A stretch of DNA of 28,891 nt from a virus: the IMG/VR virus record IMGVR_UViG_3300040806_001781, positions 1 through 28,891 of that record; one strand, 5' to 3'. A program made the translations under genes and the position numbers. A model generated the notes under the pieces. That model saw only the letters and a list, made by a program, of their open reading frames with translations. It was not told the DNA's origin and did no database searches. How positions within the stretch are numbered: position 1 is the first letter of the stretch; every line of letters begins with the position of its first letter. Below are positions 5,904 to 26,905 of the stretch, piece after piece.

Positions 5904-5911
5904 GGAGGTAT

Positions 5912-10255: not shown

Positions 10256-11213
10256 TATTACTGAGTTTGGCCAGAAAACTCTCCTAAAGAGCCATCTTTT
10301 CACGGTTTCGTGGATCACCACTAGATATTGTAATTATGAGTGCAGTTATTGCTGGCCTCACGCTAGATCTAGTACCCCAGATCCAAAGCCAACAGAATTG
10401 TACTTAAACACAATGGATAGTATCAAGGCACAGGCAAGAGCTAATGGTTTTACTGATTTCCACTTCAGTTTTAGTGGAGGCGAACCTACTGTGAATAAAC
10501 AGTTCTTACCCTTAGTAGAACACTACTGTAAAGACGAAGCACCTGAGTATCAAAGCATACATATGACCACAAATCTAAGTCCAGGAAGCAAGTGGTGGAA
10601 TAAATACTTAGAAGCAACACAAACTTTACAGCGCAGAAGTATAACAGCAAGTTTTCACGACGAATTTGCTAAAGAACAAGAGTTTGGTGATAAATGCTTA
10701 CAACTTATAAATGGAGGAGTTTTTGTTACAATCAATCAAGTTATGGTTCCAGAAAAGTTTGAAGAACTTTACGAACGCTTGGAACGATTTGCCGCCAGAG
10801 GTATTAACGTCACTCTCAAGCCACAGTCCGATCCTACCGCCAGCTTCGTGGTACATGGATACAGCGATGAGCAAATACAAAAAATGCGATCAGGATTCCC
10901 TCAAACATGGAAAGGTGAACAAGTCGCACAAATCTTACTTAAAGACGATAAAGGAATAGAGTACGAATTAGACCAAGCAGAACGTTTTAATGCATTTGGC
11001 TTTAACAAGTTTCAAGGGTGGACTTGCAATGCAGGTTATCAAGGCATAATTATTCGTGACAACGAAGTTAGAAGAAGTCACAGTTGTCACGACGAAATAT
11101 TAGGAACAGTATCAAACGGGTTTGAATTATTTAAGAAACCTGCGAAGTGCATAACACCTAGTTGTATGAGTAGTGCAGATAGTAAATTGCCAAAGGTAAA
11201 GTATGAAAGTTGA
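10224..11213 (+). CDS. Radical SAM enzyme with C-terminal SPASM/twitch-like Cys module
   Basis: A 329-residue radical SAM protein. CNYECSYC (Cys36, 40, 43) ligates the [4Fe-4S]-SAM cluster, and SGGEP (84-88) binds the SAM amino group. A C-terminal module GWTC (Cys268), HSC (Cys288) and Cys309/Cys314 followed by LPK suggests an auxiliary Fe-S cluster. Three further genes in this window share this module. Such enzymes commonly modify peptides or sugars by C-H activation. The frame opens at TTG 10212, but ATG 10224 is preferred; neither has a clear ribosome site, and both overlap the previous gene. Parts of the gene (about 10250-10400 and 10790-10870) have visibly more G and C at third positions than neighbours. 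Confidence 0.87.
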   Translation: MNNFQNIPWDNITEFGQKTLLKSHLFTVSWITTRYCNYECSYCWPHARSSTPDPKPTELYLNTMDSIKAQARANGFTDFHFSFSGGEPTVNKQFLPLVEHYCKDEAPEYQSIHMTTNLSPGSKWWNKYLEATQTLQRRSITASFHDEFAKEQEFGDKCLQLINGGVFVTINQVMVPEKFEELYERLERFAARGINVTLKPQSDPTASFVVHGYSDEQIQKMRSGFPQTWKGEQVAQILLKDDKGIEYELDQAERFNAFGFNKFQGWTCNAGYQGIIIRDNEVRRSHSCHDEILGTVSNGFELFKKPAKCITPSCMSSADSKLPKVKYES

Positions 11214-11823
11214 TATAGAAGACGTATTGTTTTGGATGGATGCTATTCGCAACAGCGAAGATAGATATCGCACACTCGAAAGTTTTTGGAAAGGTCAAGT
11301 ACATAGTAAAGTATGGCTTGTTGAACAACTTGAAAAAATTTTACTTCAGTACCATAAAGAAAAAACAATAGCAATATACGGTGGCTGGAATGGCGTATTA
11401 TCTAGTATACTATTCAATAGCAAAATTAATATTAAACACATCACAAGTATTGATATTGATCCTGTTTGTGAAGAAATTGCAACAACAATTAATAGACGTC
11501 AAGAAATAGAAGGACGATTTAGTGCAATTACTTCTGATATGGTATATCATTACGAAAATGTTGATATTGTTATTAATACTAGTTGCGAACACATTACACA
11601 AGAACAATACGTCAAGTGGTTAAAAAATCAACCTGATGATGCAGTTATTGTACTACAAAGCAATAATTACTTTGATCACGAAGAACATATACGGTGTTCG
11701 ATTGACTTAAATGATTTTACAAAAATGAGTGGCATAAAACCTTTATATAGAGGTATTATGGAAACACCTAAATATGAACGTTATATGATTATTGGAAAGA
11801 AAAAATTTAATGAAGTTTTATAA
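11203..11823 (+). CDS. Class I SAM-dependent methyltransferase-like protein
   Basis: A 206-residue Rossmann-fold protein. IAIYGGWNG (57-65) is motif I, SIDIDP (82-87) supplies the acidic residues that bind the SAM ribose, SDMVYH (111-116) fits the adenine-binding motif, and VDIVINTSCEH (120-130) is the motif IV strand. The Gly-Trp-Asn form of motif I is unusual but in place. AAAGG lies 6 bases upstream of the ATG, and the gene overlaps the preceding radical SAM gene by 11 bases, implying joint translation. The methyl acceptor is unknown. Its stop is shared, in a TTATAA palindrome, with the stop of the opposing gene. Confidence 0.78.
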   Translation: MKVDIEDVLFWMDAIRNSEDRYRTLESFWKGQVHSKVWLVEQLEKILLQYHKEKTIAIYGGWNGVLSSILFNSKINIKHITSIDIDPVCEEIATTINRRQEIEGRFSAITSDMVYHYENVDIVINTSCEHITQEQYVKWLKNQPDDAVIVLQSNNYFDHEEHIRCSIDLNDFTKMSGIKPLYRGIMETPKYERYMIIGKKKFNEVL

Positions 11824-12466: not shown

Positions 12467-12970
12467 TTAATCCTCATATGTGCTTATTTGTAAAACTATA
12501 CGCGGCGAATAACCGATATTTGAAGCACCATGTATAGCAGACGAGTTTACATATTCGTATAAGTCGCCTTTCTTATAATTAGTAATTACTGTATCTTCAT
12601 ACAGAAATAAATGACCCGGTTCGTAGTCTTGCCACGGCATCCAATACCGTTTGCTGTTCTTTTGAAACTTAGTATGCGGATCAACGTGTATTGGCATAAA
12701 GTTTCCAGGTAACATTTTGGTAATCCACCAATGGAAGTTGTCTTGTATAAAGGGCGGAGCAACATTAAATGTAGTATTATTCTGTGTAAACATATAAAAG
12801 AATATGTCATCGTCTTTAAATCCTGCTGCCCTTGCTTTTGCGTATTCTGCTTCTTCTTCAGGACTGTCTGGTTTCTTGCCCTCAGCAGGTCTGGCAGTAC
12901 CACGATTAGATAGTATTTCTTCTACCCATTCGTCCTTAATCCAATCTGAAAAGTTACCAATAAACTTCAT
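12467..12970 (-). CDS. 2OG-Fe(II) oxygenase-like protein
   Basis: A 167-residue oxygenase fold. MPIHVDPHT gives His95/Asp97, SAIHGASN gives the distal His147, and SPRIVLQIS gives Arg157 for 2-oxoglutarate. The full HxD...H...R set is present. A short, charged, probably disordered segment (RPAEGKKPDSPEEEAEYAKA, about 27-46) interrupts the N-terminal part, and its codons are richer in G and C than the neighbourhood. The start lies in an ATGA overlap with the upstream radical SAM gene, so the two are translated together. The substrate may be the product of that enzyme, but this is inference. Confidence 0.8.
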   Translation of the reverse strand: MKFIGNFSDWIKDEWVEEILSNRGTARPAEGKKPDSPEEEAEYAKARAAGFKDDDIFFYMFTQNNTTFNVAPPFIQDNFHWWITKMLPGNFMPIHVDPHTKFQKNSKRYWMPWQDYEPGHLFLYEDTVITNYKKGDLYEYVNSSAIHGASNIGYSPRIVLQISTYED

Positions 12971-14250
12971 CTATACATCCTTATGTAAGGAAAAATCTTT
13001 TCATAATCTACGTTTCTAATACGTTTATACAAATCAAACACTCTAGTACGTTCTTTAACTTCTGCATCAAAGTTTTCAATATTTGCATACAAGTGAGCCG
13101 GAATAGACTTTAAATAATTAAGTGTGGCATTATTATTCTTAAACATAGGATGATCTTTGTTGTTCAGAGTATATGTTTCGATACGTCTTTTTAAGTCTTG
13201 TTTTTGATCGTCTTCTAAAAACTTTATATCTAAGTAACTAGGATCTTTAACAATATTAAATCCAATACGCATACCGTCTTTATATATAGATTTAAAGTTT
13301 TCAAATATGTCCTCAAAGTCTAAAATATTTAAACAGTTAAATGTAGTTGAAATATCTAAATTAATATCAGGGTCTTCTAATATCAACTCAACATTCTTTT
13401 TAAATTTAACATAATCTGTTGGAAAACGAATTGCTTTTAATTTCGCAGGATCTACATGATCGTAGCTCGCTACCAGTGTTGCAGATTTAAACTTTTTTAG
13501 TACACGTAGTTGTTTTTTGTTTATTAGTGTAAAATTTGAAATCATTTTAATGTGTATATTTTTTGCTAGATCCGTCTCTACTAATTTGTCTAGCAACTTA
13601 ATAGCAAAAGGATTTACAAATGCCTCTCCGCCTAACAATTCTAAATCGTGACAAACTTTTAATGCTGGTTCTAATTGTTCAATTACTTTTTCGGCATTGT
13701 CGTGACTAGCAAGTCCTGCAAAGTTTCTTAATGTTTCGTCTACTTTTTCTGCTTCGACGTCTACAAATTTTTGCCAAGCAGGAAGCTCTTCTCCGAGTAT
13801 TTTAATTTCTTGCACTTCATCTTGTATTTTACTACTAGCGAGTTGATTACACATTATGCATTTTAAATTACACAAGTTTCCAATTTTTAAGTCAATGTAT
13901 TTTGGTAGGGAAGTAATATGGCCATTGTTGTTATATGCTTCTTCAACTATATCTTCGTCTAGTACCACATCCTTTAAAGATTTTTGTCTGTATGAAAATC
14001 CGCCTGCATCTTCAATTTTCCAACAGTTATCACAATGACTATTACGCACTCCGTTGATTAGATCCATACGTAACTGTTTGTAATATTCATGATTCCACAT
14101 ATCTTCTATACCTACTTCAAGAATAGAAAAATATTCGCCTTTGTGTATGATGACAGGATAACTCATGCAGCATAACTTATAATGCCCGTTTGGAGACGAG
14201 TTAATGTGATTGAAAGGAATTTTGCAAAATGTACTTTCGCTTTTGTGCAT
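12967..14250 (-). CDS. Radical SAM enzyme with N-terminal twitch domain
   Basis: A 427-residue protein with two cysteine sets. The N-terminal module (Cys9, Cys27/28, Cys73 and Cys76, with NHINSSPNG and KLCCMS between) is the arrangement of radical SAM proteins with an N-terminal twitch auxiliary-cluster domain. The catalytic core has CNLKCIMC (Cys127, 131, 134) and LLGGE (205-209). Two homologues lie at 16120 and 21062. The first gene of its block, it is preceded by AAGGA and a TATAAATA box on the minus strand. The substrate is unknown. Nearby oxygenases and the methyltransferase suggest a multi-step modification. Confidence 0.87.
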   Translation of the reverse strand: MHKSESTFCKIPFNHINSSPNGHYKLCCMSYPVIIHKGEYFSILEVGIEDMWNHEYYKQLRMDLINGVRNSHCDNCWKIEDAGGFSYRQKSLKDVVLDEDIVEEAYNNNGHITSLPKYIDLKIGNLCNLKCIMCNQLASSKIQDEVQEIKILGEELPAWQKFVDVEAEKVDETLRNFAGLASHDNAEKVIEQLEPALKVCHDLELLGGEAFVNPFAIKLLDKLVETDLAKNIHIKMISNFTLINKKQLRVLKKFKSATLVASYDHVDPAKLKAIRFPTDYVKFKKNVELILEDPDINLDISTTFNCLNILDFEDIFENFKSIYKDGMRIGFNIVKDPSYLDIKFLEDDQKQDLKRRIETYTLNNKDHPMFKNNNATLNYLKSIPAHLYANIENFDAEVKERTRVFDLYKRIRNVDYEKIFPYIRMYR

Positions 14251-14299: not shown

Positions 14300-15385
14300 A
14301 TGTTTTTATTTGAAGAACTTAAACAAGTACATATAGAAATTACAACTCGTTGTCAAGCAAGTTGTCCAATGTGTAGCAGAAATTATCACGGAGGACTTGA
14401 AAATCCTAATCTACGCTTAAATGACTGGACTTTAGACGAGTTTGTTTCTATTTTTGACAATACGTTAGTTAATCAACTTTCGGGTGTGTACTTTTGTGGA
14501 AACTTTGGCGACCCAATTATTAACAATGATCTTGCAGAAATGTGTAATCATTTAACTATTAATAATCCTAAAATGAGTGTTCGTATACACACTAATGGAA
14601 GTGCAAGATCATTAGACTGGTGGAAAAAGTTACCTTCAAAGTTACCTAAAGACCATGTTGTTGTATTTGCCTTAGACGGACTAGCAGACACACATCACAT
14701 TTATCGTATTGGTACTAAGTTTGAACAAATACTTAAAAATGCACAAGCATTTATACAAGCAGGCGGAATTGCTGAATGGGTGTTTATTAAATTCAAGCAC
14801 AACGAGCATCAAGTCGACGAAGCGCAGCGTATAGCTACAGAAATAGGTTTTCAAAGATTTAGTGTTAAGAATAGTTCAAGATTTTTAACGGATGATAAAT
14901 TTGATGTATACGACGAAACTGGAAATATAATTTACCATTTAGAACCGCCTAGCGAAAATGAAATACAGTTTATTTCAAAAGATATTGTAAACAATGTTGA
15001 CAAATGGCTCGACAATGTTGAAATAGAATGTTATGTTAATAAACACAAAGAAATTTATATGGATGCTCATAGAATGTTATGGCCCTGTTGTTTCTTAGCA
15101 TCAACACCGTATAATCATAACGAGCCTTCTAGTATTATACATCAATTAAAAATACGAGCAGTTGACGAATACAATGACGTAGTTAAATATTTTGGTAGCG
15201 AAGATGCATTAGACTTAACTAAACATCATGCTAAAGATATAATCAATTCTACAGCTTGGCAAAATATTTGGCAGGAAAAATGGTCAAAGAAACAATTACT
15301 AGTTTGTGCTAAAACTTGCGGCAAGTCAAAAGTTAAAGAGTTTTCAAAACCTACTGAACAAATTATTCAAAGGATTAATTTATAA
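14300..15385 (+). CDS. Radical SAM/SPASM-like enzyme with GNFGDP motif
   Basis: A 361-residue radical SAM protein. CQASCPMC (Cys18, 22, 25) binds the catalytic cluster. The usual GGEP is replaced by CGNFGDP (66-72). The C-terminal part has Cys244, the pair Cys263/264 (WPCCFLAS) and Cys336/340 (VCAKTCG), an arrangement consistent with a SPASM-type auxiliary cluster domain. It has a different architecture from the other seven radical SAM proteins here. It heads the plus-strand block, 50 bases after a divergent start, with a weak ribosome site. A 12-codon micro-ORF immediately follows its stop. Confidence 0.84.
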   Translation: MFLFEELKQVHIEITTRCQASCPMCSRNYHGGLENPNLRLNDWTLDEFVSIFDNTLVNQLSGVYFCGNFGDPIINNDLAEMCNHLTINNPKMSVRIHTNGSARSLDWWKKLPSKLPKDHVVVFALDGLADTHHIYRIGTKFEQILKNAQAFIQAGGIAEWVFIKFKHNEHQVDEAQRIATEIGFQRFSVKNSSRFLTDDKFDVYDETGNIIYHLEPPSENEIQFISKDIVNNVDKWLDNVEIECYVNKHKEIYMDAHRMLWPCCFLASTPYNHNEPSSIIHQLKIRAVDEYNDVVKYFGSEDALDLTKHHAKDIINSTAWQNIWQEKWSKKQLLVCAKTCGKSKVKEFSKPTEQIIQRINL

Positions 15386-15423
15386 TGAGCATGTCAAGAT
15401 TAATACAGGGTTTTAAAGAATGA
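15385..15423 (+). CDS. 12-codon micro-ORF, coupled on both sides
   Basis: An ATG at 15385 begins inside the previous stop (TAATG), and the 12-codon frame MSMSRLIQGFKE ends in a TGA that overlaps the next gene's ATG (ATGA). It exactly fills the only gap of its block. AGGA lies 10 bases upstream. It may be a translated spacer that carries ribosomes between two genes, a very small peptide (even a substrate of the flanking enzymes), or chance. Nothing but geometry supports translation. Confidence 0.3.
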   Translation: MSMSRLIQGFKE

Positions 15424-16127
15424 TAGATAAAATTCCTTTTGATAGTAGTTGGAAAAATATTGGCATAAGTTTAAGCGGTGGTGCAGATAGCGCACTACTT
15501 GCATATTTATTATGTTCAAAAGTAACAACTACTAATGTTCACATATTAAGTCATGTGCGTATGTGGAAGACACGCCCGTGGCAACGTTATGATAGTTTAG
15601 GTGTATATAATTGGTTAGTTAACCGTTTCCCGCATATAAAATTTACAAGACATGAAAATTTCATTCCACCAGAAATGGAATATGGTAATAAAAAAGAACA
15701 ATTATATGACGAGTACGGCAATTTTCGTAGTGGCGATCAAATTATTGTAAGGGCACATGCAGAATGGATTGCTATGACCGAAAAGTTAGATGCTTGGTAT
15801 GCAGGTAAAACTAAAAATCCAAGTGATCCTACAATTACAAAAGGTATGCCTGATAGAAATGTTATAGAAGAAGATACTAACGAACTTGTTAAAGAACATC
15901 TGGGCGTTAAAGTTTGTCATCCATTTTTATATACCGAAAAAGATTGGATAATTTCCCAGTATATCAAACATGACATCTTAGATTTATTAAATATCACACG
16001 CAGTTGTGAAGGCGACTTTAAAGATTTAGATTATACAAATTATATACCAGGACAAGAAGTACCAGAATGTGGAGAATGCTTTTGGTGCCAAGAGCGTAAA
16101 TGGGCAATGGATAAAAATAATGTCTGA
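15420..16127 (+). CDS. QueC/ExsB-like PP-loop ATP pyrophosphatase
   Basis: A 235-residue N-type ATP pyrophosphatase. SGGADS (19-24) is the PP-loop that binds ATP phosphates. Near the C terminus, Cys196 (RSCEG), then Cys217, Cys220 and Cys223 in CGECFWCQERKWA, form a four-Cys site like the zinc site of QueC (7-cyano-7-deazaguanine synthase). QueC adenylates a carboxylate to make an amide and a nitrile. Here no other 7-deazaguanine genes are present, so only the carboxylate-activating chemistry is suggested. Members of the wider family are often called phosphoadenylylsulfate-reductase-like. It lies between two radical SAM genes, overlapping the next by 8 bases. A paralogue is at 18487-19161. 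Confidence 0.8.
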   Translation: MIDKIPFDSSWKNIGISLSGGADSALLAYLLCSKVTTTNVHILSHVRMWKTRPWQRYDSLGVYNWLVNRFPHIKFTRHENFIPPEMEYGNKKEQLYDEYGNFRSGDQIIVRAHAEWIAMTEKLDAWYAGKTKNPSDPTITKGMPDRNVIEEDTNELVKEHLGVKVCHPFLYTEKDWIISQYIKHDILDLLNITRSCEGDFKDLDYTNYIPGQEVPECGECFWCQERKWAMDKNNV

Positions 16128-17511
16128 TTTAGAAAAATATCAAGCAGAAATAGCAAAAGTGTCTGGTACAGCTACTTTTTGTATTTTACCTTGGATACAT
16201 TTTGCAACACGACCAAATGGCGACATGCGATTATGTTGCAGTGCTAATGCTAGTGGTGCAGGTAATGATCATGAAATAGGCCTTGTTAAAATGGAAGACG
16301 GCCGACCTGCTAACTTTGGACATCATACTCCTATGGAAGCGTGGAATAACGATTATATGAAAAGTGTACGCCGCACGATGTTAGCAGGAGAAATACCAGC
16401 AAGTTGTACTAAATGTTTTGAAGAAGAAGATAAAGGCATTGTTAGTAAGCGTATTTGGGAAACAGGCACTTGGCATCAAGATGAAGATGCAGGTATAGAT
16501 ATTCCAGAACTTATAAGACAAACTAAAGAGGACGGAACAGTACCAGAAGAGTTAAAGTATTTAGATTTACGATTAGGTCATACTTGTAATATTAAGTGTG
16601 TTATGTGTAGTCCTCATGATAGTTCTAAATGGGTAAGTGATCACAAGAAACTTATACCTGTACTACAAGATCCCGAAGTAAAAAGGCAGATGCAATGGGA
16701 TCGTAAAGAGTTTAATAACTTTTGGCACGAAAAGGATACATTCTGGGAAGAAATGTATGCTCAAATACCTAACCTAAGACAAGTATACTTTGCAGGCGGC
16801 GAACCTCTAATGATCAAAGAACACAAACAGTTCATTGAAGAAATAGTGCGTCAAGGTTATCAAGACAAAATACTGTTACGTTATAACTCTAACGGATTGC
16901 TTGTAGACGAAGATTTAATTGAGTTATGGAGTAAATTTAAAAAAGTTAAATTTGCTATTAGCATGGATGCTAGTCACGAACGTGACGAGTATATACGATT
17001 TCCTACTGATTTTGAAACTGTAGAACGTACACTACATATGTTAGACAATACGCCCGACAACATACAAACTAGCCTAGCAACTGCTATACAAATTTTTAAT
17101 GTTAAACACTTGCCTGATTTTATGAAGTGGAAAGTAGAAAGTGGATTTAAAAAACTAAACAGCGGTACAGTACCAGGTGGTGTGCAGATGGGCGGAGGCT
17201 TAGTCAATATGCACTTGTTATACATTCCTACGTTTTTAAGCATACAGATTCTACCTAAAGAAGATAAGCAAGAAGTTGAAGAACGTTTTATGGATTTTAA
17301 AGATTGGCTATGGAAAAACTATAGACAAGATGACGATTACTGGAAGCATAATCCTTATGGTTGGAAACGTTGGGAAGCAGTTCTTAATCATATGAATGCA
17401 CAGGATAATAGTTATCTACTTCCTGGCTTTAAAGAGTATACAAACAAATTAGATGCAATCCGCGGCCTCAGCGCAGCAAAAATATTCCCAGAATTGGCAC
17501 ATTTATTATGA
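16120..17511 (+). CDS. Radical SAM enzyme with N-terminal twitch domain
   Basis: A 463-residue protein, the longest of the three N-twitch enzymes. The N-terminal cluster ligands are Cys21, Cys39/40 (MRLCCSA) and Cys96/Cys99 (SCTKCFEEED). The core motif CNIKCVMC gives Cys156, 160, 163, and AGGEP (225-229) is complete. CILPWIHFATRPNG is the N-terminal signature shared with the 21062 gene. The start is ATG 16120, which makes an ATGTCTGA 8-base overlap with the ATPase gene; an upstream in-frame ATG at 16069 would overlap it by 59 bases. Coupling to the QueC-like ATPase suggests work on the same substrate. Confidence 0.87.
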   Translation: MSDLEKYQAEIAKVSGTATFCILPWIHFATRPNGDMRLCCSANASGAGNDHEIGLVKMEDGRPANFGHHTPMEAWNNDYMKSVRRTMLAGEIPASCTKCFEEEDKGIVSKRIWETGTWHQDEDAGIDIPELIRQTKEDGTVPEELKYLDLRLGHTCNIKCVMCSPHDSSKWVSDHKKLIPVLQDPEVKRQMQWDRKEFNNFWHEKDTFWEEMYAQIPNLRQVYFAGGEPLMIKEHKQFIEEIVRQGYQDKILLRYNSNGLLVDEDLIELWSKFKKVKFAISMDASHERDEYIRFPTDFETVERTLHMLDNTPDNIQTSLATAIQIFNVKHLPDFMKWKVESGFKKLNSGTVPGGVQMGGGLVNMHLLYIPTFLSIQILPKEDKQEVEERFMDFKDWLWKNYRQDDDYWKHNPYGWKRWEAVLNHMNAQDNSYLLPGFKEYTNKLDAIRGLSAAKIFPELAHLL

Positions 17512-18485
17512 TTAAAGAAATTATAGAAGTAAAAGCAACACACAAGGATGTATTACGTATATATTGCGACTTTAGTAATGTTTGTAATTACAAGTGCTGG
17601 TATTGCTTCCCAGATTCAAATACAGGCACACATCCTTGGCCCAATGATGATGTTATTAAAGAAAACATTGTTTCTTTAGTAAACTTTTACAATAATAGCG
17701 GTATTATTAATAGAGTAGAGTTGCATTTATTAGGAGGCGAACCTACTTTATGGAAAGATTTAGGAAAGTTTGTAAAATATGTAACAGAAAACTGTAAATG
17801 TGCTATTAAAATTTTAACAAATGGTAGTAGAACTCTACGTTGGTGGAAAGAGTACTCGGATTATTTTGAAGCTATACATATTACTGTGCATCACGAAAGG
17901 GTTGATTTAGAGCATATTGAAAATTTATCTAAACTTTTATTAGAAAAAGATTCATTGTTTGAGTTAAAAGTCCTAATGGATTTTAAAAATTGGGATAAAT
18001 GCGTATCTATAGTGGATAGATTGTCTAATTTTGAAGAAGATATTTTACTAAGAATAGAACCTATACACATTAATGGTGAGTCTTTTTATACAGATGAACA
18101 AAAAACATATTTTGAAGAAAGCATCAGGAAAAAGCCAAGTCCTAAAATGATAGAAAGGTGGATGCAGCAGCCAATGAGAAAGTACAGTGTTATCACAAGT
18201 GATAGGCAAGAGCACGAAGTAAATTCAGACGGATGGTTTTCTTTAAATAACTTAAACCATTTTGAAGGCTGGAAATGCAATTTAGGGATTAACTATTTGT
18301 ATATAAGCAGAGACGGAGTTATATCTGGAACATGTAAACAAAAGTTATTTGAGATAGACGGATACTATAATATAAAAGACCCGGACTTTAAAAATAAATT
18401 TTCACCTGAGCTAAAACCTGTAATATGTCAACAAACGGTATGCATGTGTGCAGGAGAAGCATCTTTACCTAAGTGTAAACAATAA
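17508..18485 (+). CDS. Radical SAM enzyme with C-terminal GWxC Cys module
   Basis: A 325-residue radical SAM protein. CNYKCWYC (Cys26, 30, 33) and LGGEP (75-79) form the core. The C-terminal module has GWKC (Cys257), GTC (Cys276), Cys307 and CMC (Cys312/314), then AGEASLPK. This matches, segment by segment, the tail of the 10224, 19158 and 20164 proteins. The start overlaps the previous stop (ATGA). Its stop is separated by one base from the opposing gene's stop. Family is sure; the substrate is unknown, although the clear paralogy implies related substrates or sequential steps. Confidence 0.87.
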   Translation: MIKEIIEVKATHKDVLRIYCDFSNVCNYKCWYCFPDSNTGTHPWPNDDVIKENIVSLVNFYNNSGIINRVELHLLGGEPTLWKDLGKFVKYVTENCKCAIKILTNGSRTLRWWKEYSDYFEAIHITVHHERVDLEHIENLSKLLLEKDSLFELKVLMDFKNWDKCVSIVDRLSNFEEDILLRIEPIHINGESFYTDEQKTYFEESIRKKPSPKMIERWMQQPMRKYSVITSDRQEHEVNSDGWFSLNNLNHFEGWKCNLGINYLYISRDGVISGTCKQKLFEIDGYYNIKDPDFKNKFSPELKPVICQQTVCMCAGEASLPKCKQ

Positions 18486-18486
18486 T

Positions 18487-19161
18487 TTAAAATTTACCAA
18501 ATGCCCAAAGGCGTTCTCTACAATTCCAACACTTTTCGCAATGTGTGTTTGCTGGACTGTGGCCGCCGCAACTATTTGTTAACGGAAATAGCGTATCTAA
18601 TAAGTTATGTTGTTTATAAATTTCAGCTATTTCTTTTTTATCCATCATTATAAATGGGCGGATATCTCCAAACTCGTAATCTGTGTTATCAATTTCTATA
18701 ACTCCGCACAAAATTTTAAGTTTGTTGACCATACTTCCTCGAATATTTTGTACTTCTGGAGATATCTCCCATCCATTAGTGTACGCTTCAATATCAGGAG
18801 ATTGATTTATACCGCTATAAATATAGTTATACCTTCCTTCTTTTATATGACTATTTCGAACATTAGAAAAACTTTCATCGTATTCTTGTTTAGTTTCTGG
18901 ACAGTGTACAATGATATCTAAGAATAATTCACTACAGTTTAAATCTTGTTTAATAAAATTTAAAACATCTAAATGACATGTGTCGCCCTTGCGCTTCAAT
19001 ATAGATACCGGCTGAATTTTATAATCTAAATTATTTTCTTTTATATGTTTAGCTAGTAGATAGCATAGTATACTACTATCAGCACCTCCAGATAACCAAA
19101 TTCCAAGAGTGTTATTTTTTTCTAAAAAAACGTTATTAGGTATATAAAAATTGATATTCAT
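18487..19161 (-). CDS. QueC/ExsB-like PP-loop ATP pyrophosphatase, second copy
   Basis: A 224-residue protein with the PP-loop SGGADS (24-29). A C-terminal four-Cys site is formed by Cys198 (NSCGG) and Cys208, Cys211, Cys214 in CEKCWNCRERLWA. The ending closely parallels that of the 15420 protein (C-x2-C-W/FWC-x-ER-x-WA), although the middle is very different, which fits old duplication and new specificity. The start overlaps the stop of the 19158 radical SAM gene (ATGA), with AAGGAA five bases before it. As with the first copy, it probably activates a carboxylate or related group with ATP. Confidence 0.8.
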   Translation of the reverse strand: MNINFYIPNNVFLEKNNTLGIWLSGGADSSILCYLLAKHIKENNLDYKIQPVSILKRKGDTCHLDVLNFIKQDLNCSELFLDIIVHCPETKQEYDESFSNVRNSHIKEGRYNYIYSGINQSPDIEAYTNGWEISPEVQNIRGSMVNKLKILCGVIEIDNTDYEFGDIRPFIMMDKKEIAEIYKQHNLLDTLFPLTNSCGGHSPANTHCEKCWNCRERLWAFGKF

Positions 19162-20177
19162 ATTAATTCCTTAAATGTAATAATGTCCTTTGCTTTAGGC
19201 ACACACATTCCACAGCCGCAACGATTATTAGGACAAACAATAATCTTATCTTTATTTTCTGCAACATAGTCTAGTATTGAAGATGTGTTATTTAAGTTAC
19301 CTATAGGGCCTCTACGACCGTCGTGTAGTGCTTGACACGTTTGATGATGGTACACGTTACCTGTATGTTGATCAATGTGTAAAAAGTACTTGTTTACACT
19401 ACAAAACCACCCTTTAAAATTTGTATTAACAAAGTCAACATCCTGCCATTCACCGTTAACTTTTCCTTGTACACAACGCCCGCCACAACAGTTGCGTCCT
19501 TCTTTAGGTTCACTTATACCTAAGTAATTAAAATACCATTGTTTTTGATTTTCGTTATACTCATGACTTGTGCGCCTCTCGCTTCCGTCTGTGTCAATAA
19601 ACCAACCTTTGCGTTCAATATTACCATCACCTATCGGTCTTGGATTATGCTTGATCCCCAATTCTTTTAATTCTGCACAAATGCGTTCGCACTCTGTAAA
19701 ATGATCAACATGCATCATTACATTGACTTGTAACCATATACCTGTTTTGTACAGTAGTTTAATATTGTCCATGGTTTGCTTTTTAAGTATTTCTGCACCT
19801 TCAGCATGGTAACTAACAGTTACACCTTCAAACCATTTAGCAATGCGATCTGTATTTTTGGGATGCCACGCACCATTAGTAGTTAAACTTAATCTAAAAC
19901 GTGTTTCAGTTTCGTATATGTGTTCTGCTAGTTTCCAAAACGCATTATTAACTGTAGGCTCTCCGCCTGTAAAATTAATATTGACTAATTGATCGCCTGT
20001 ATATTCTTTTATAAATTTAAAAGTTTTTAATAGTTCATCGTATGAATGTAAAGGACTAACATTGTCATGTCGTGTTGCTTCGCAGTATGTACAATCAAAA
20101 TTACATCTACGTCCGGTATCCCACGTAACCATGAAGCGTTCTGTGTTTGGTAATCTTATAGCACTAGTCTTTAACAT
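19158..20177 (-). CDS. Radical SAM enzyme with C-terminal GWxC module and extra Cys insertion
   Basis: A 339-residue radical SAM protein. CNFDCTYC (Cys25, 29, 32) and TGGEP (70-74) make the core. An insertion with Cys230, Cys231 and Cys235 (RNCCGGRC) precedes the C-terminal module GWFC (Cys259), TC (Cys281), Cys315 and C-x-C-x2-C (Cys320, 322, 325) and VPKAKD. The additional Cys set sets it apart from its three paralogues and might hold a further metal site. It overlaps the upstream radical SAM gene by 14 bases and the downstream ATPase by 4, so all three should be made together. Confidence 0.87.
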   Translation of the reverse strand: MLKTSAIRLPNTERFMVTWDTGRRCNFDCTYCEATRHDNVSPLHSYDELLKTFKFIKEYTGDQLVNINFTGGEPTVNNAFWKLAEHIYETETRFRLSLTTNGAWHPKNTDRIAKWFEGVTVSYHAEGAEILKKQTMDNIKLLYKTGIWLQVNVMMHVDHFTECERICAELKELGIKHNPRPIGDGNIERKGWFIDTDGSERRTSHEYNENQKQWYFNYLGISEPKEGRNCCGGRCVQGKVNGEWQDVDFVNTNFKGWFCSVNKYFLHIDQHTGNVYHHQTCQALHDGRRGPIGNLNNTSSILDYVAENKDKIIVCPNNRCGCGMCVPKAKDIITFKELI

Positions 20178-21069
20178 TTATTTTACTCAACGGAATATCT
20201 GCGGCACATGTACACCATTTACGTGTGCAAGTTACCCACTCTTCAGGAGACTCAAATTCTCCTTTATATATGTTACCTAAACTGCCACCTACACGACAAG
20301 TAGCACGATGTACCTCGCCGTCCCAGTTAATCATTAGACTTTCTATGCCAGCAGCACAACTCCATCCCTCAAACTGATTTAGGTGTTCTTTAATGATATC
20401 ATTGGCATGCATTAGTTCTTTATCGTCAATCACACAGTTAGCTTTAGCGGTAGATTTTTGATCTAGTATCCATTGCAAATCTTTTGGCTGATAACGCATA
20501 TCGTCAAACCAGTCATGCTTCTCTGTCCAGCGTATGCGTCTTACTACATAAGGAATATGATGTCCATCAAACAACGTTGCACAAGTTTTTACTCTATCCA
20601 TATGTTCGTGATGTGCCATTAGATTAACTTGAAATGGTATACCTCTTTCTGTCTCGTTTAGTTGCGTCCAGTATAGCACATTGTTTAAACAACGTTCCCA
20701 GTTGTCATCATCTTCTACATGCAAGCTGAATACGTAATGGTTTACAGGTAGTCTGCCATACAGTTTGTGCGGTAGTGTTCCATTAGTTGTAATGTTAACC
20801 CAGTCTAATTGTTGTACAGCGTGGTCTACTATGTCTATAATATAAGGATGTATGCAAGGTTCTCCGCCTGTTAAACTTAAACGTACAGGCTTTCCTATTT
20901 CTGCAAGTGCATCGATAGTATCTGTCATAACTTTAACTTCAGTGTGAGAACTAAAATTGTCATGTATTTCTGCAGGACAATATGTGCAGTCTAGATTACA
21001 TCGTTTACCAATATTCCACTCAACATGTATACTATCTTGATGCGGCCATTTAGATGTTACTTTATACAT
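20164..21069 (-). CDS. Radical SAM enzyme with C-terminal GWxC Cys module
   Basis: A 301-residue radical SAM protein. CNLDCTYC (Cys24, 28, 31) and TGGEP (67-71) are canonical. The C-terminal module has GWSC (Cys238), ATC (Cys258), Cys281 and CTC (Cys286/288), followed by AADIPLSK. It is the smallest of the four GWxC paralogues. It begins in an 8-base overlap (ATGTATAA) with the N-twitch gene upstream and runs 14 bases into the next radical SAM gene. Three radical SAM enzymes in series on one message suggest an ordered set of modifications; the substrate is not evident. Confidence 0.87.
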   Translation of the reverse strand: MYKVTSKWPHQDSIHVEWNIGKRCNLDCTYCPAEIHDNFSSHTEVKVMTDTIDALAEIGKPVRLSLTGGEPCIHPYIIDIVDHAVQQLDWVNITTNGTLPHKLYGRLPVNHYVFSLHVEDDDNWERCLNNVLYWTQLNETERGIPFQVNLMAHHEHMDRVKTCATLFDGHHIPYVVRRIRWTEKHDWFDDMRYQPKDLQWILDQKSTAKANCVIDDKELMHANDIIKEHLNQFEGWSCAAGIESLMINWDGEVHRATCRVGGSLGNIYKGEFESPEEWVTCTRKWCTCAADIPLSKINVKD

Positions 21070-22327
21070 AAGGTGTAAACTCCGGATTGACGTTAAAGAA
21101 ATTTTGATCTCTAGTTTTATCTAATCTACGATTAAATTCTACACAATCGTTCCAATGCGTATCGTACATACACTTTGCTGTTAAGAAATTAATGTTATCT
21201 TGAATCTGTTGTAATGTTACCTTTTTTAGTATATCGTGTTCTTGTACTAGAGGATATTCTAATACTTCTGTTTTCATTTCTTCTAAACGTTCTACTACTT
21301 GCTTCTTTAGATCTGGCGGCAATACTTGCGCACTTAATGACATAGGATAGTTTACACGATGCGAATAAAACACAATGCCCATTTTATTAATAAAGTAATC
21401 AATTACTTTGTCAATCTGCATAATGTTATTTGCTTGCACAGTGAACGCACCTACTACACGACTTACATTAGGAAAGCTTTTAAATACTTTGATGTTTTCT
21501 TCTACTTCACTAAACTTTCCATTACCTCTAATGTACTCGTAGACATCGTGTATACCGTCTATGCTTACGTTTACTGCGATTGATTTAAACTTGGGCCAAT
21601 AGTCGTGTATTGTACGTCCGCCTTTTATACCTAGCGTAGTGCCGTTTGTAGCATACTTTAGTTCTATGTTATCGCCATACTCTGCAAGTTTGTCTAGTAT
21701 CTTGTAATGATGCGGATCCATTAGAGGTTCACCGCCTGCAAACTCTACTCTACGGAAATACGGCAATAGTTTTTCAAAACTATTCCACCAGTTATCACTG
21801 TTGTCAAATGGACCAATGTACTGTCCGGGCTTGTCTACTAGTGCGTCGATTGTAGGAATCAAGTAGTTGTTTTCTTTTTTGTAAAATTCTGTAACTTGAT
21901 TCCAGTCTTTCCAACTTGTACTATCTAACGGATTACACATACGACACTTTAGGTTACACAAGTTGTTTAGTTTAATCTCCATAGTAGGAAATTCAAAAGG
22001 CATTGTATAATCGTCGTTTAGTGCGTCCAGTGCATCAGGGTATAAGTTGACCCTAGCTTCTGGTATTACCCCTACTGTATGACGCTGTCGTAAGCTCTCT
22101 ACACCCTGATCTTCTAAGTCAAAGCATGGTTTACAAACATCAGGACGTTCGTCATTAAGCACTTGTCTACGTACTTCACGTATAGCATCATTATTCCACG
22201 CTTCTTCTAGAGTTTCATTTTGTATCCAGCTAATAGGTTGACTACGGCAACAAATTTTAATTGCGCCATCCTCTCGTGTAGCAAGACCTGTAAAAGGGTG
22301 CATACAAAATGTACATGACTTATTCAT
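21062..22327 (-). CDS. Radical SAM enzyme with N-terminal twitch domain
   Basis: A 421-residue protein. The N-terminal auxiliary ligands are Cys8 (with Cys5 near), Cys26/27 (IKICCRS) and Cys65/68 (VCKPCFDLED). The radical SAM core has CNLKCRMC (Cys124, 128, 131) and AGGEP (197-201). The start is ATG 22327: GGAG and GTGGA sit upstream of it and it forms an ATGAATAA 8-base overlap with the previous gene. An in-frame ATG at 22345 is less likely. It is closest in layout to the 16120 protein. The minus-strand order (unknown two-domain protein, this enzyme, two GWxC radical SAM enzymes, QueC-like ATPase) mirrors the content of the plus-strand block. Confidence 0.87.
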   Translation of the reverse strand: MNKSCTFCMHPFTGLATREDGAIKICCRSQPISWIQNETLEEAWNNDAIREVRRQVLNDERPDVCKPCFDLEDQGVESLRQRHTVGVIPEARVNLYPDALDALNDDYTMPFEFPTMEIKLNNLCNLKCRMCNPLDSTSWKDWNQVTEFYKKENNYLIPTIDALVDKPGQYIGPFDNSDNWWNSFEKLLPYFRRVEFAGGEPLMDPHHYKILDKLAEYGDNIELKYATNGTTLGIKGGRTIHDYWPKFKSIAVNVSIDGIHDVYEYIRGNGKFSEVEENIKVFKSFPNVSRVVGAFTVQANNIMQIDKVIDYFINKMGIVFYSHRVNYPMSLSAQVLPPDLKKQVVERLEEMKTEVLEYPLVQEHDILKKVTLQQIQDNINFLTAKCMYDTHWNDCVEFNRRLDKTRDQNFFNVNPEFTPYV

Positions 22328-23480
22328 AGTAATTCCACTCTCCAATATGCCACGTTGGTTTTGTTAAGTCTTTAATCAATGCACAATCACCACCACCAAA
22401 GCCTTCTGCTGCTCTTCCTGTAATTATCATTGTTGCATTTTTAATATTATCAACATAAAAATTTTCTCTAGCAAGCCTATGCTCTAAACTATGTAATGCA
22501 ACAGTGCCTTCATAGCAAAAAATATTTGAAAGATTAACAAGTGTTGTAAAATCATCATTAATGTGTTCTAGTAAGTTGTCGGTTAACAGATTACATTTTA
22601 TAAACTTTACGTTATAATCCTCTATCTGTGTTTTCCAGTAATTTATACTTTCTTGATTATAATCGTATAGAATAATTTCAACACCTTCGCTGGCATAATG
22701 TTTCCACCAATTGTCACTAGCAGGAGAAACTATTTGTTTGAACTTAGAAACCTTAGGCATAGGGTCTGTACCTTTTGTATGCACAAATTCGTATTGGCAA
22801 TAGTTATATTTTTTATAAATGTCATTAATGCGTTCGTTAAACAATGTTATATTTTCTGGGTAGTAATACATTTTATGTTGCCTAATACTTTCAGGCCAGG
22901 CGTTAATAGTATGTCTGTTTTCTAATGCGCAGTTAATAATATTCCAGCCGTGAAGTCTGTGATTATATTTTGTAGTAACAGATCCGCTTTTAATCCATAA
23001 TGGTGTATAATCATCGTGTATGTTTTCTTCAGATCTAACAGGCATCGTAGTTGTTAAAGGATTACCTAGTGTAACATCGCCAATAATTGGCTGACCTAGT
23101 AATGTATATTTCTCAATGTTGATCAAATAACATTGATGATGTAGTTCGTAGTACTCAGTTTTCCTGTCTAAAATGTGTCCGTACAAAAAGTAATCAGTTT
23201 CTATTAACTTATCGACTTCGTTAAAGAAATTATCTCCATTTACAAATTCTGTTCCTGTAGAAAAAACAACAGCATGTTTGTAATTGTTTTGTGATGCATA
23301 TCGCAACATCTCGTCCTCGTTCTCGGACTGTACTAACGATTTACCTTTATTAAACAAATTAGAAATTGTATAGTCGCTAATATTTTTAGTAACTTCTTTG
23401 GCCCATGCTGACTTATAACTCTGTGTATTGTCCACAAAGCAATAAAGTACTTTTGTATCTTTTTCAAAAAACTTAATCAT
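22320..23480 (-). CDS. Two-domain protein of unknown function: GT-like N-part, methyltransferase-like C-part
   Basis: A 386-residue protein that I do not recognise with certainty. The N-terminal half includes VFSTGTEFVNGDNFF and a GHILDRKTEYYELHHQCYLINIEKY region (about 100-125), which recalls glycosyltransferase-A-like domains of cyanobacterial and phage proteins. The C-terminal half (about 240-375) looks like a Rossmann methyltransferase: a P-A-S-D-N-W-W turn in place of motif I, VEIILYDYN as the acidic strand, KCNLLTD, and TTLVNLSNIFCYEGT as a later strand. A Gly-rich motif I is missing, so SAM binding is doubtful. The start makes an 8-base ATGATTAA overlap with the upstream oxygenase gene. 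Confidence 0.45.
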   Translation of the reverse strand: MIKFFEKDTKVLYCFVDNTQSYKSAWAKEVTKNISDYTISNLFNKGKSLVQSENEDEMLRYASQNNYKHAVVFSTGTEFVNGDNFFNEVDKLIETDYFLYGHILDRKTEYYELHHQCYLINIEKYTLLGQPIIGDVTLGNPLTTTMPVRSEENIHDDYTPLWIKSGSVTTKYNHRLHGWNIINCALENRHTINAWPESIRQHKMYYYPENITLFNERINDIYKKYNYCQYEFVHTKGTDPMPKVSKFKQIVSPASDNWWKHYASEGVEIILYDYNQESINYWKTQIEDYNVKFIKCNLLTDNLLEHINDDFTTLVNLSNIFCYEGTVALHSLEHRLARENFYVDNIKNATMIITGRAAEGFGGGDCALIKDLTKPTWHIGEWNYYE

Positions 23481-24114
23481 TATGATTATTATAACTTCTT
23501 ACAACTAAATTTGCAAATTCTTTTTTCATATTTCCAATCATACAGTGTGCAATAAGATGAATTCTTGGAATATTAGAATTATTTTGAACAGAATGATTTT
23601 TAGTAATGTTTACTATAAACGATTTACCTTCTGCCCACGGCACTCTTTTACCGCCTATATGCATAGTGCATCCTTGCGGATGTGTAATTGCAATATTAAT
23701 AGGCACAATGAATGGATCGTCCATTAGCTTAATTTCTGTATTTGAAAAGCCTCCCGGAGCATCGTTATGTTCGCCAACCCAACCACTAGGTTCTAGTTCC
23801 ATAAATCTAATACGTCCAAATCGTTCGCTTGGAAATTGTTTCCAAAAAGAAGTAATTGTTGGAGTTAAGTCGCTTAGTTCTGTCCAATCAAATACAGCAT
23901 TTTCTGAAAACGCTGTTTTTGTTACACCTTGACCGTGTATAGCACAACTACGCCAACCTTTATGATTTTCGTCTTTTCTGTGTCCTACCATAAATTCTCT
24001 AGCAATTTCAGCTTCTTGTTTCCAAGCAAATAAATCAATATCTAAATCCAACTCTATCCATCCGATATCTTTTTGTAATATTTCTTCTGCTTGTTCTATC
24101 ACACTCATATACAT
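23473..24114 (-). CDS. Aspartyl/asparaginyl beta-hydroxylase-like 2OG-Fe(II) oxygenase
   Basis: A 213-residue protein. RIRFMELEPSGWVGEHNDAP gives His116/Asp118, KNHSVQN gives the distal His174, and IPRIHLIAH gives Arg184 as the 2-oxoglutarate ligand. Among the seven oxygenase-like proteins here this is one of the best matches to the aspartyl/asparaginyl hydroxylase family. The frame opens at TTG 24123, but ATG 24114 (or ATG 24108 two codons later) is the likely start; no strong ribosome site is present. First gene of the minus block carrying three radical SAM enzymes, it may hydroxylate the same substrate. Confidence 0.82.
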   Translation of the reverse strand: MYMSVIEQAEEILQKDIGWIELDLDIDLFAWKQEAEIAREFMVGHRKDENHKGWRSCAIHGQGVTKTAFSENAVFDWTELSDLTPTITSFWKQFPSERFGRIRFMELEPSGWVGEHNDAPGGFSNTEIKLMDDPFIVPINIAITHPQGCTMHIGGKRVPWAEGKSFIVNITKNHSVQNNSNIPRIHLIAHCMIGNMKKEFANLVVRSYNNHND

Positions 24115-24134
24115 ACTTAGCAATTAAATGCGTA

Positions 24135-24148
24135 CATAAATAATTATA
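24135..24148. promoter_or_regulatory. Candidate divergent promoter region
   Basis: Only 33 bases separate the divergent starts at 24114 and 24148. On the plus strand CATAAATA (24135-24142) is one base off the T4-late box and would start transcription at about 24148, the A of the ATG, giving a leaderless message; no ribosome site precedes that ATG. On the minus strand TATAAT lies at 24148-24143, about 29 bases before the oxygenase start. These short AT motifs could arise by chance; position is the main support. Confidence 0.4.
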
Positions 24149-24819
24149 TGGTAATAAAGACTAACATAAAGGTTGATAAAACGTTACTACAAGAATTAAG
24201 TTCTGTAAATGTCGATGTTGATTTTAAACTACCTGTAAATAAACCTAGCGGAGATTTCTTTTACGATCCTTGGGATATAAAAGAAGAATTTAAAGGGACT
24301 GTTTGGGAACGATTGTTAAATGTATTACCAAATAATATAGGCGAAGCACGATTAATTAAATTAACTCCTGGACAAGCATATAGATCACATGCTGACATTG
24401 ACGATAGATACCATTTTAATATTACAGGAGAGAAATCTTTCGTAATTTATACAGATCTTAATACAATATATCCACAAGAACAAACAGAGTATTGGTATGA
24501 AATGGATGCAGGTCCGGTTCACAGTGCAGTTAACACTGGTAGAGTAGACCGTATACAATTTGTAGTTAGAAAATTGTTATTAAAAAATTCACTAAAAAAT
24601 CCTATAACTATAAAAATTACATTACTAGAAGATGCACACGATTGGAGATATCAGTTTGATGCTATAACTAGTGTTTGGCTTAATAAAGCAAACAAAGAAG
24701 GCACTATTACAAATTTTAAATGGGACGGCGAACAAGTACAATTTGACATTGAAGAAAATTGTATTAATGACTTAAAAGCAAATTTAGCAAGGATATTTAA
24801 TGTTGAAATTATACGGTAA
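24148..24819 (+). CDS. 2OG-Fe(II) oxygenase-like protein
   Basis: A 223-residue protein. ARLIKLTPGQAYRSHADIDD gives His81/Asp83, GPVHSAVN gives the distal His125, and GRVDRIQF supplies Arg135 (or Arg132). The first 150 residues hold the hydroxylase-like core. The remaining 70 residues are an extra C-terminal domain of unknown role (starting KNPITIKITLLED). No Shine-Dalgarno sequence lies before the ATG. It overlaps the next oxygenase gene by 20 bases, so the two oxygenases should be produced together. Confidence 0.75.
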   Translation: MVIKTNIKVDKTLLQELSSVNVDVDFKLPVNKPSGDFFYDPWDIKEEFKGTVWERLLNVLPNNIGEARLIKLTPGQAYRSHADIDDRYHFNITGEKSFVIYTDLNTIYPQEQTEYWYEMDAGPVHSAVNTGRVDRIQFVVRKLLLKNSLKNPITIKITLLEDAHDWRYQFDAITSVWLNKANKEGTITNFKWDGEQVQFDIEENCINDLKANLARIFNVEIIR

Positions 24820-25342
24820 TATTAATAGTCTAATAGACTGTGACTTTTTAATTAAGCAATGTATGACGCATACAGTAGAGACCTATGTTGGCCATATGGA
24901 ACAGCCTAAAGATAGTCCGTATTACGATGAATACATTAAACAACATACTGCTGCACTCGAAGCTGGTTATAATGAAAGTGTAGAATTTAGACATTATTAT
25001 CCAGTATTACACTTTAGTGAATCTGTAACTAAAGAATTTGAAAAGTTTACAAACACAAAACATTTACTAAGTTTTGTAAGTGAAATACGTCCTGGCAAGT
25101 GTGCGCCCTGGCATTCAGATATTAATCCTTGGTTAGATGATTATCCTAATGGAGAGTTTGTTAGATATGTTTGTTTCATAGACAAGCCTAAACACGGTCA
25201 AGCATTTATGATTGAAGATACTTGCTTCTACTTAGAAGAACAGGGCAATGTATACCAATATCCTTCTTTAGATTCCTTTCATGCAGGGTTTAATGCAGGA
25301 TTAGAAACTAAATTTTTATATACATACACAGGAATTTTATGA
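24800..25342 (+). CDS. 2OG-Fe(II) oxygenase-like protein with Lys in place of the usual Arg
   Basis: A 180-residue protein. FVSEIRPGKCAPWHSD gives His105/Asp107 and SFHAGFN gives the distal His161. Ten residues later, where Arg usually binds the 2-oxoglutarate C5 carboxylate, the sequence has ETKFLY, so Lys171 probably does this. It may be a variant cosubstrate site. AAGGA lies six bases before the ATG, well inside the upstream gene. Its stop overlaps the next start (ATGA). The substrate is unknown. Confidence 0.75.
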   Translation: MLKLYGNINSLIDCDFLIKQCMTHTVETYVGHMEQPKDSPYYDEYIKQHTAALEAGYNESVEFRHYYPVLHFSESVTKEFEKFTNTKHLLSFVSEIRPGKCAPWHSDINPWLDDYPNGEFVRYVCFIDKPKHGQAFMIEDTCFYLEEQGNVYQYPSLDSFHAGFNAGLETKFLYTYTGIL

Positions 25343-26115: not shown

Positions 26116-26905
26116 TACCCAATTGTGTACGAAATTCATCTGTAAACTTTCCATCAATCCTTAGAGAATAGCTTTGTTCAATAATTTTGTCGCCGCCGTG
26201 CCAGTCTTGATCATTCCACCATGCTGCTCTTGAATTAATGTAAGTTTTATTTTGTGTATCTGGATCCCAAATATAAAAAGGTTTTTTAGTATTAGGACGT
26301 ATATGAATAAATTCATTTCTGTGTGGACTGTATTGGTTATCGTCCCAAACACCGTTATGTTGTCCTAAGTCTCTGTGTTCAAAAGGATAACCGTCGTGTT
26401 CGCAAAAGAATACAATAACACGACCAATATGTTCAAAGATATTGTTGTCAATCATGTCTTGTACCCAGTTTACAGTTTGTGGGAAAAAGCGAGACTCCTC
26501 AGTTGGCTTACGCTCTTTAGTTCTGTCATCCCAATTACCTTCTTCCCACAAAAAGTAATATACATAAGGATCATATGCTCCTAGTGCAATCTTTAAAAAT
26601 CTAGTAAACTTGTTTCTGCTTTTATAGTCTTTAATATTAGTATACAAGTCCCAGCCTGCTTGCTTAATAGGATCGTCGTCTGGTAATGCTAGGTATTCGT
26701 CTAATGCATCAAAGATTGGTTTCCAATGATGTCTGTAGCTCATTTGCTCAAACTTAAACCCTGGCTTCATCCAAGTACCTTCTTTAGCAAATTCTCTTGC
26801 TTCTGCAAACCCGCGAAAAAGTTCAGGTTGTAGTTTATCAAATGTATCCATGTCTAGATACTTTTCTAAATTAAAGTACGGTGTGCCACCAATTCCTCTA
26901 AGCAT
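26093..26905 (-). CDS. 2OG-Fe(II) oxygenase-like protein
   Basis: A 270-residue protein. FEHRD gives His177/Asp179, DWHGG gives the distal His236, and YSLRIDG gives Arg249, a complete HxD...H...R set in the C-terminal third. The first 160 residues are a mostly helical extension with RHHW and YVYYFLWEE segments that I cannot assign. It overlaps the kinase-like gene by 8 bases (ATGCTTAG). Its substrate is unknown. It is the most divergent and longest oxygenase-like protein in the window. Confidence 0.65.
   Translation of the reverse strand: MLRGIGGTPYFNLEKYLDMDTFDKLQPELFRGFAEAREFAKEGTWMKPGFKFEQMSYRHHWKPIFDALDEYLALPDDDPIKQAGWDLYTNIKDYKSRNKFTRFLKIALGAYDPYVYYFLWEEGNWDDRTKERKPTEESRFFPQTVNWVQDMIDNNIFEHIGRVIVFFCEHDGYPFEHRDLGQHNGVWDDNQYSPHRNEFIHIRPNTKKPFYIWDPDTQNKTYINSRAAWWNDQDWHGGDKIIEQSYSLRIDGKFTDEFRTQLGINHLDSY

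Follow-up and report, generated by a model that had tools for sequence, protein, structure and literature searches.

The stretch of DNA analyzed here (the window), a 28,891-base fragment of a virus from IMG/VR, carries two genes for QueC-like proteins. Gene A (positions 15420 to 16127, plus strand) encodes a 235-aa protein predicted to be a QueC-fold PP-loop ATPase, and gene B (18487 to 19161, minus strand) encodes a divergent QueC-like paralog of 224 aa that matches the Pfam QueC family. Gene B is the last of a minus-strand run of four genes, in which it follows members of families c4, c3, and c15, and it overlaps the preceding gene by 4 nt. A first-pass annotation of the window had described the two proteins as sharing SGGADS and a four-Cys C-terminal ending while differing strongly in the middle, and this description proved accurate. 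SGGADS occupies residues 19 to 24 of A and 24 to 29 of B and is invariant in the alignments of each, the C termini read 'SCEGDF...CGECFWCQERKWA' in A and 'SCGGHS...CEKCWNCRERLWA' in B, and the two proteins are 23 to 25% identical.

Gene A also encodes the sequence RMWKTRPWQ at residues 47 to 55, and its four-Cys site consists of C196, C217, C220, and C223, which are the only Cys residues invariant among 29 A sequences. Neither protein has a full-length match to the Pfam QueC model (PF06508) above the cut-off of 22 bits; B scores 32.6 bits through a match limited to its C-terminal 63 residues (161 to 223), and A falls below the cut-off at 17.2 bits. Across the 29 diverse A homologs 53 positions are invariant, and the dN/dS ratio of A is 0.03 to 0.12, indicating purifying selection. 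Together with a confident structural model that has QueC as its best match, these values argue that the motifs of A are not there by chance.

The predicted fold of A

We modeled A with AlphaFold2 (pLDDT, 89.6). The best structural matches of the model are QueC proteins (Z scores of 15.2 and 14.5; PDB 3BL5 and 2PG3), with the Z 15.2 alignment covering 181 residues in the model range 11 to 235, and these are followed by Cap9 (PDB 9NTO; Z 14.0) and QatC (PDB 9Y01 and 9Y02; Z 13.2). When PDB sequences were searched with a profile of A, the PP-loop motif was all that matched. On the model, in which the PP-loop fold aligns through the C-terminal metal-type site, A is a member of the QueC-fold ATP-pyrophosphatase superfamily. 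TilS, LarE, and NcsA reach Z scores of 13 to 14, 1 to 2 Z units under QueC, and this closeness means that the fold alone does not settle the function.

These same matches, with NcsA and TtuA among the top Foldseek hits, would fit a sulfurtransferase-type PP-loop enzyme of the NcsA/TtuA/LarE/TilS kind that modifies a tRNA or a cofactor. However, with its invariant Cys residues confined to the C-terminal site, A has neither extra Cys ligands nor a sacrificial Cys at the ATP site, and most alignments with NcsA, TtuA, and LarE end around residue 200, whereas those with QueC, Cap9, and QatC run through the metal site to residues 231 to 235. We therefore regard a sulfurtransferase function as distinctly improbable.

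A and B are set apart from canonical QueC

Mutagenesis of Escherichia coli QueC has shown that Y35 (in the YxQxHxxE motif), R99 (VPxRN), Y131 (YPDC), and Y189 are essential (PMC13329287). In a profile alignment with QueC, A has no counterpart of YxQxHxxE or VPxRN; at the position of YPDC it has the invariant pair N133-P134, and at the position of Y189 it has the invariant E197. The first-pass annotation had raised a new use of carboxylate-to-amide or carboxylate-to-nitrile chemistry. Amide formation is the best reading of what we see, but nitrile formation is unsupported, because the residues that QueC needs on the substrate side are missing in A.

The loss of these motifs extends to the relatives of A and B. 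Among 51 viral QueC-like proteins, none has YxDC and one has VPxRN, compared with 6 and 7, respectively, of 7 true QueC proteins; conversely, the ending C..C[FW].C.ER.[WF] is found in 49 of the 51 and in none of the 7. In an IQ-TREE phylogeny of these proteins, the true QueC proteins are split from the viral proteins by a branch with 100/100 support and the A sequences group together at 95/95, whereas the placement of the window's B, which has a long branch, is uncertain. The motifs, the tree, and the limited PF06508 coverage rule out an ordinary queC gene as the identity of A or B. Instead, A and B appear to be members of a distinct, virus-restricted branch of QueC-fold ATP-pyrophosphatases. 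An annotation pipeline that labels proteins of this kind "QueC," or deduces 7-deazaguanine in DNA from them, would probably be in error.

Gene A within a conserved radical-SAM island

Gene A lies among genes for radical-SAM proteins. Directly upstream is a family c0 radical-SAM gene (14300 to 15385, plus strand; Radical_SAM match at 1.2e-8), and the end of A is overlapped by 8 nt by a family c1 gene (16120 to 17511, plus strand) whose product has an N-terminal twitch/SPASM-type domain. Next come a family c10 gene (17508 to 18485, plus strand) and, beyond B on the minus strand, genes of families c15 (19158 to 20177), c3 (20164 to 21069), and c4 (21062 to 22345), the last again with an N-terminal twitch/SPASM-type domain. 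Two further radical-SAM genes lie to the left, one of family c9 (10212 to 11213, plus strand) and one with a SPASM-type domain (12967 to 14250, minus strand; Radical_SAM, 37.4 bits, and SPASM, 24.5 bits, each above its cut-off). The first-pass annotation had held that the radical-SAM neighbors carry auxiliary-cluster domains, and we could confirm this for the c1 and c4 genes with the NF033640 model (397 and 330 bits, respectively; cut-off, 170); for others, including the c0, c10, and c15 proteins, conserved C-terminal Cys residues support it, and in c10 and c15 these residues are of the auxiliary-cluster type.

The island also encodes several putative oxygenases. An aspartyl/asparaginyl beta-hydroxylase-type protein (23473 to 24123, minus strand) matches PF05118 at 54.4 bits, and three 2-oxoglutarate (2OG)-oxygenase-like proteins are recognized by conserved residue patterns alone: c6 (24148 to 24819, plus strand; HxD...H...R) and c5 (24800 to 25342, plus strand; HxD...H), both with no Pfam match, and c12 (12467 to 12970, minus strand). 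A methyltransferase-like protein of family c8 (11203 to 11823, plus strand) has only a weak PrmA-like Pfam match, and its distant match in Pelagibacter phage Mosig is a putative methyltransferase; a family c7 protein (26898 to 27578, minus strand) has a protein kinase-like fold by a profile match to kinases (E = 5e-7).

We then compared 80 loci that contain A. On average they hold 7.3 radical-SAM genes per ~21 open reading frames (ORFs), tightly packed with overlapping genes (median gene gap, -7 nt). Families c1, c3, and c4 are the most constant neighbors (77, 77, and 76 loci, respectively), and in 50 relatives c4 is the gene immediately after A. Of the 80 loci, 75 have one or more of the 2OG-oxygenase-like families (c6 in 74, c5 in 59, and c12 in 34), and c8, c7, and c9 occur in 66, 64, and 57, respectively. 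Family c13 is found in 38 loci, usually directly upstream of A; profile searches with c13 and c8 gave no match, and c13 was resolved by structure alone, with AlphaFold2 and Foldseek, as a pyridoxal phosphate (PLP) fold-type I protein. The first-pass annotation had overlooked a larger point, that A is a fixture of a conserved island of radical-SAM genes.

A RiPP cluster would have a gene for a short precursor peptide beside its maturase gene. Within 9 kb of A, no conserved ORF of 20 to 69 aa outside the larger genes fits such a precursor, and the few shared short ORFs near A each occur in only 2 to 5 loci. We rejected a RiPP cluster on this ground.

7-Deazaguanine genes in A-bearing phages

The absence of folE, queD, queE, and dpdA from the window, on which the first-pass annotation had remarked, is real but means little in a 28.9-kb fragment with no further genome behind the record, and we therefore turned to relatives. 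We searched 32 A-bearing whole records (41 to 266 kb, many of them fragmentary) for folE, queD, queE, queC, TGT, and dpdA. Adjacent folE and true queE genes (168 to 179 bits) were found in 9 of these records and queD was found in 10 others, but folE never occurred together with queD, and none of the 32 had a full 7-deazaguanine set or a canonical QueC above the cut-off. A negative result with PF01702 was uninformative for phage DpdA, since DpdA of phage 9g itself gives no PF01702 match; when the search was redone with phrog_887, two positive-control records matched and none of the 32 A-bearing records did.

The folE-queE pair sits outside the A island. It is also present without detected A in many related phages, including records of 208, 183, and 136 kb, and among 25 other records selected for queE, only 3 had A-like proteins and 2 had a full-length canonical QueC. 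The pair thus characterizes a broader group of phages, and its co-occurrence with A does not tie A to 7-deazaguanine, although CDG may still be made in some of these phages. The island in the window closely resembles that of record G001, and so the window's virus probably has folE and queE as well.

A DNA 7-deazaguanine system was accordingly rejected, with only parts of one present in the A-bearing records and folE-queE found where A was not detected. The first-pass annotation had named the discovery of the remaining pathway genes as the outcome that would overturn its view, and the search of the 32 records, with no full set, no canonical QueC, and no dpdA, did not overturn it. Its description of QueC-like ATPases lacking a queuosine or 7-deazaguanine pathway therefore stands insofar as A and B lie outside the pathway as known, but it needs amending in that relatives hold parts of the pathway elsewhere. 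These parts, and the rank of QueC as the best structural match of A, could still be explained if A, B, or both were a diverged QueC of a pathway to DNA or tRNA shared with the host, in which the phage supplies folE and queE, or queD, and the host supplies the rest. Given the missing YxQxHxxE, VPxRN, and YPDC motifs, the separation of folE from queD, the lack of dpdA, and the position and wider distribution of the folE-queE pair, we judge such a shared pathway to be rather improbable.

Distribution and genomic settings of the branch

Searches with A found 181 related stretches in IMG/VR but no match in 50,697 phage records, the same records that yielded 303 with E. coli QueC. QueC-like proteins of two other types (L116 and L176) had no match among isolates either. 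A scan of GTDB species genomes by short exact patterns, which would miss distant relatives, found no relative of A or c13. As a single-sequence query, B matched nothing in viral contigs, and an alignment query was needed for its relatives.

The QueC-like relatives of B occur in three settings. Some are in other radical-SAM islands, in distant viruses, and a number of these islands have two QueC-like genes; some lie beside the terminase large-subunit gene in marine phages of the T4-like kind, where an amidinotransferase-like gene is present in certain cases; and some follow nrdA, with nrdB downstream. The third setting is represented by 38 marine loci, in which nrdB is downstream wherever the locus reaches that far, the genes mostly overlap or are separated by a few nucleotides, and thyX is just upstream. 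Loci L164 to L166 have the order nrdA, a radical-SAM gene, two QueC-like genes, and nrdB, and the radical-SAM gene is of family c0, the family found directly upstream of A in the window. This is the smallest partnership of QueC-like and radical-SAM genes that we observed, and it suggests that a radical-SAM enzyme can function as one unit with a pair of QueC-like enzymes. The terminase-linked relatives and most of the nrd-linked ones are without radical-SAM genes, and hence the partnership is not obligatory across the branch.

The link to ribonucleotide reductase genes and thyX would be explained if the branch acted on deoxynucleotides, modifying a nucleotide or a DNA base. The nrd position may, however, be a mere insertion site. 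Moreover, A-type islands hold sugar, oxygenase, and methyltransferase-type genes, and in three large T4-like records (145 to 169 kb, with gp23) they lie apart from the mapped structural genes and gp47. We consider action on deoxynucleotides very improbable.

Discussion

Using ATP, QueC and Cap9 activate the carboxylate of CDG, which is then coupled to ammonia or to the amine at the N terminus of a protein, according to the accounts in PMC13329287, PMC13279940, and PMC11996544. Our main reading, to which we would give an even chance, is that the branch serves a radical-SAM tailoring pathway by activating a carboxylate with ATP and ligating it in an amide-type reaction; this reading draws on the chemistry common to QueC (in its first half-reaction), Cap9, and probably QatC. 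For A, this reading builds on established features, namely, the QueC fold, an intact phosphate loop, the metal-type site, the loss of the QueC substrate motifs, purifying selection, and the constant linkage to auxiliary-cluster radical-SAM genes. By analogy with the fold relatives, A and B would activate a carboxylate with ATP, and attack by an amine would give an amide or an amide-linked conjugate. The substrate may be an intermediate made by the neighboring radical-SAM and oxygenase enzymes rather than 7-carboxy-7-deazaguanine, the paralogs A and B may serve two different partners or two steps, and tailoring could yield a small molecule or modify a phage or host macromolecule encoded elsewhere.

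SPASM-family (auxiliary-cluster) radical-SAM enzymes frequently have peptides and proteins as substrates, and this favors the strongest alternative to our main reading, protein conjugation as in Cap9 and QatC. Here, A and B would couple a carboxylate-bearing small molecule to a protein of the phage or the host, either at its N terminus or on a side chain, and this might serve counter-defense or virion modification. Both Cap9 and QatC are among the nearest folds, and QatC, like A, is without the CDG-recognizing Tyr/Asp pair (PMC13279940). On the other side, a nonsystematic look at the neighbors revealed no constant partner with a Gly motif at its N terminus, no defense-type partner was found, and A does not have the terminal extensions of QatC. 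We therefore think protein conjugation unlikely. Returning to ligation for a tailoring pathway, we put forward more tentatively, as something rather less than an even prospect, that QueC-fold ligases and auxiliary-cluster radical-SAM enzymes form a virus-specific class of enzymes that together build and attach a new type of covalent modification on a protein, glycan, or nucleotide during infection, independently of 7-deazaguanine and with a minimal three-gene form between nrdA and nrdB.

Compared with known systems, A resembles QueC (PF06508; PDB 3BL5 and 2PG3) in fold, in the SGGxDS loop, in the four-Cys C-terminal site, and in length. In contrast to QueC, A and B are without its three substrate motifs and a queC operon, the site of their branch ends in CxxC[FW]WCxERxW, and they fall on their own side of the 100/100 branch. 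Cap9 of type IV CBASS is a carboxylate-activating ATPase that is likewise close to A in fold and of minimal size, but it retains the QueC substrate motifs (PMC13329287) that A does not have; no CD-NTase was found among the Pfam-scanned genes of the window. QatC of QatABCD shares the fold and the loss of the Tyr/Asp substrate pair, but it exceeds 400 aa, with N- and C-terminal extensions, whereas A has 235 aa, and no qatA-, qatB-, or qatD-like gene was recognized among the annotated neighbors, which are radical-SAM and oxygenase-like. The c1 and c4 proteins of the window belong to the N_Twi_rSAM family (NF033640), here with the difference that the two are linked with a QueC-like ATPase.

Phage modules rich in radical-SAM genes have drawn comment since 2010, with no settled function in the accounts given in the available parts of the sources, in Campylobacter phages CP220 and CPt10 (PMC2853527), in a T4-like TARA genome (PMC5332604), and in the host-recognition cluster of pelagimyophages (PMC7029224). 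They are like the islands described here in belonging to large phages and in forming a variable module with as many as 12 radical-SAM genes, but the available parts of those three papers do not mention a QueC-like ATPase, whereas A with c1, c3, and c4 forms a constant core across 80 loci. In the isolated phage Mosig, a comparable cassette that has no A lies between tail-fiber and baseplate genes and includes oxygenases, methyltransferases, and aminotransferases. The 2026 survey of the QueC family, in the parts available, covers QueC, QatC, Cap9, and metabolic clusters and does not describe the viral branch of A and B, and the pairing was not found described in a search of the literature on radical SAM, QueC, phage, and SPASM and on the N_Twi family in phages. 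The finding thus joins two known things, the QueC family and the radical-SAM phage modules, in a way that we have not found described. Recent work reports that bacterial immunity has twice put QueC to new use as an enzyme for protein conjugation. If our reading is true, a large and apparently virus-restricted branch that has different substrate residues and is firmly linked to radical-SAM enzymes would be the third such case, possibly viral and host directed, and the constant core of A with c1, c3, and c4 would offer an entry to the radical-SAM islands that await explanation in aquatic phages and in those of Campylobacter.

QueC-like genes between nrdA and nrdB

Members of the virus-only branch of QueC-like genes that includes A, the QueC-fold PP-loop ATPase of the window, occur in marine phage loci with the order nrdA, QueC-like gene, nrdB (loci L160-L161, L163-L169, and L171-L199; for example, L176:4200-7595). 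The QueC-like gene of these loci is in translational proximity to both nrdA and nrdB, and thyX and an SGNH-type gene usually lie upstream. At L164-L166, the order is nrdA, a radical SAM gene of the family that directly precedes A in the window (c0), two tandem QueC-like genes, and nrdB. This arrangement is a minimal form of the radical-SAM/QueC-like pairing.

An amidinotransferase-like gene, which matched SxtG/AGAT with an E value of 4e-8, lies near terminase-linked QueC-like genes and is also present in some A islands (L117:6304-7380; L125-L127, L130, and L147; L081:6707-7924). Adjacent folE and queE genes are widespread in large aquatic phages, partly T4-like (L206-L245 and the records G001, G012, and G025), and we found no queD, queC, or dpdA near the pair at these loci.

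Genes accompanying the A island

The window carries a sugar-nucleotide-type cassette (1191-7677) comprising three epimerases, a cytidylyltransferase, a PfkB-type kinase, a transketolase-like fragment, and cupin-like and HAD-like genes. It also encodes an 848-aa protein (7709-10255) that is built from repeats of ~110 aa, has a glycosyltransferase-like C-terminal part with a DGD motif, and gave no Pfam match; its family, c14, is found close to many A islands. A fatty-acid-desaturase-like gene sits at the window edge (28195-28890), and other islands too have desaturases nearby.

Among the relatives, 25 of 80 A loci carry c16, a radical SAM family that bears a zinc ribbon of the hydroxymethylpterin methyltransferase type (56.3 bits; for example, L042:3115-4173). 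The c3 radical SAM family has detectable relatives among isolates only in Campylobacter phages, such as CP21 (L083); these phages could be used as a model in culture for the radical-SAM component.
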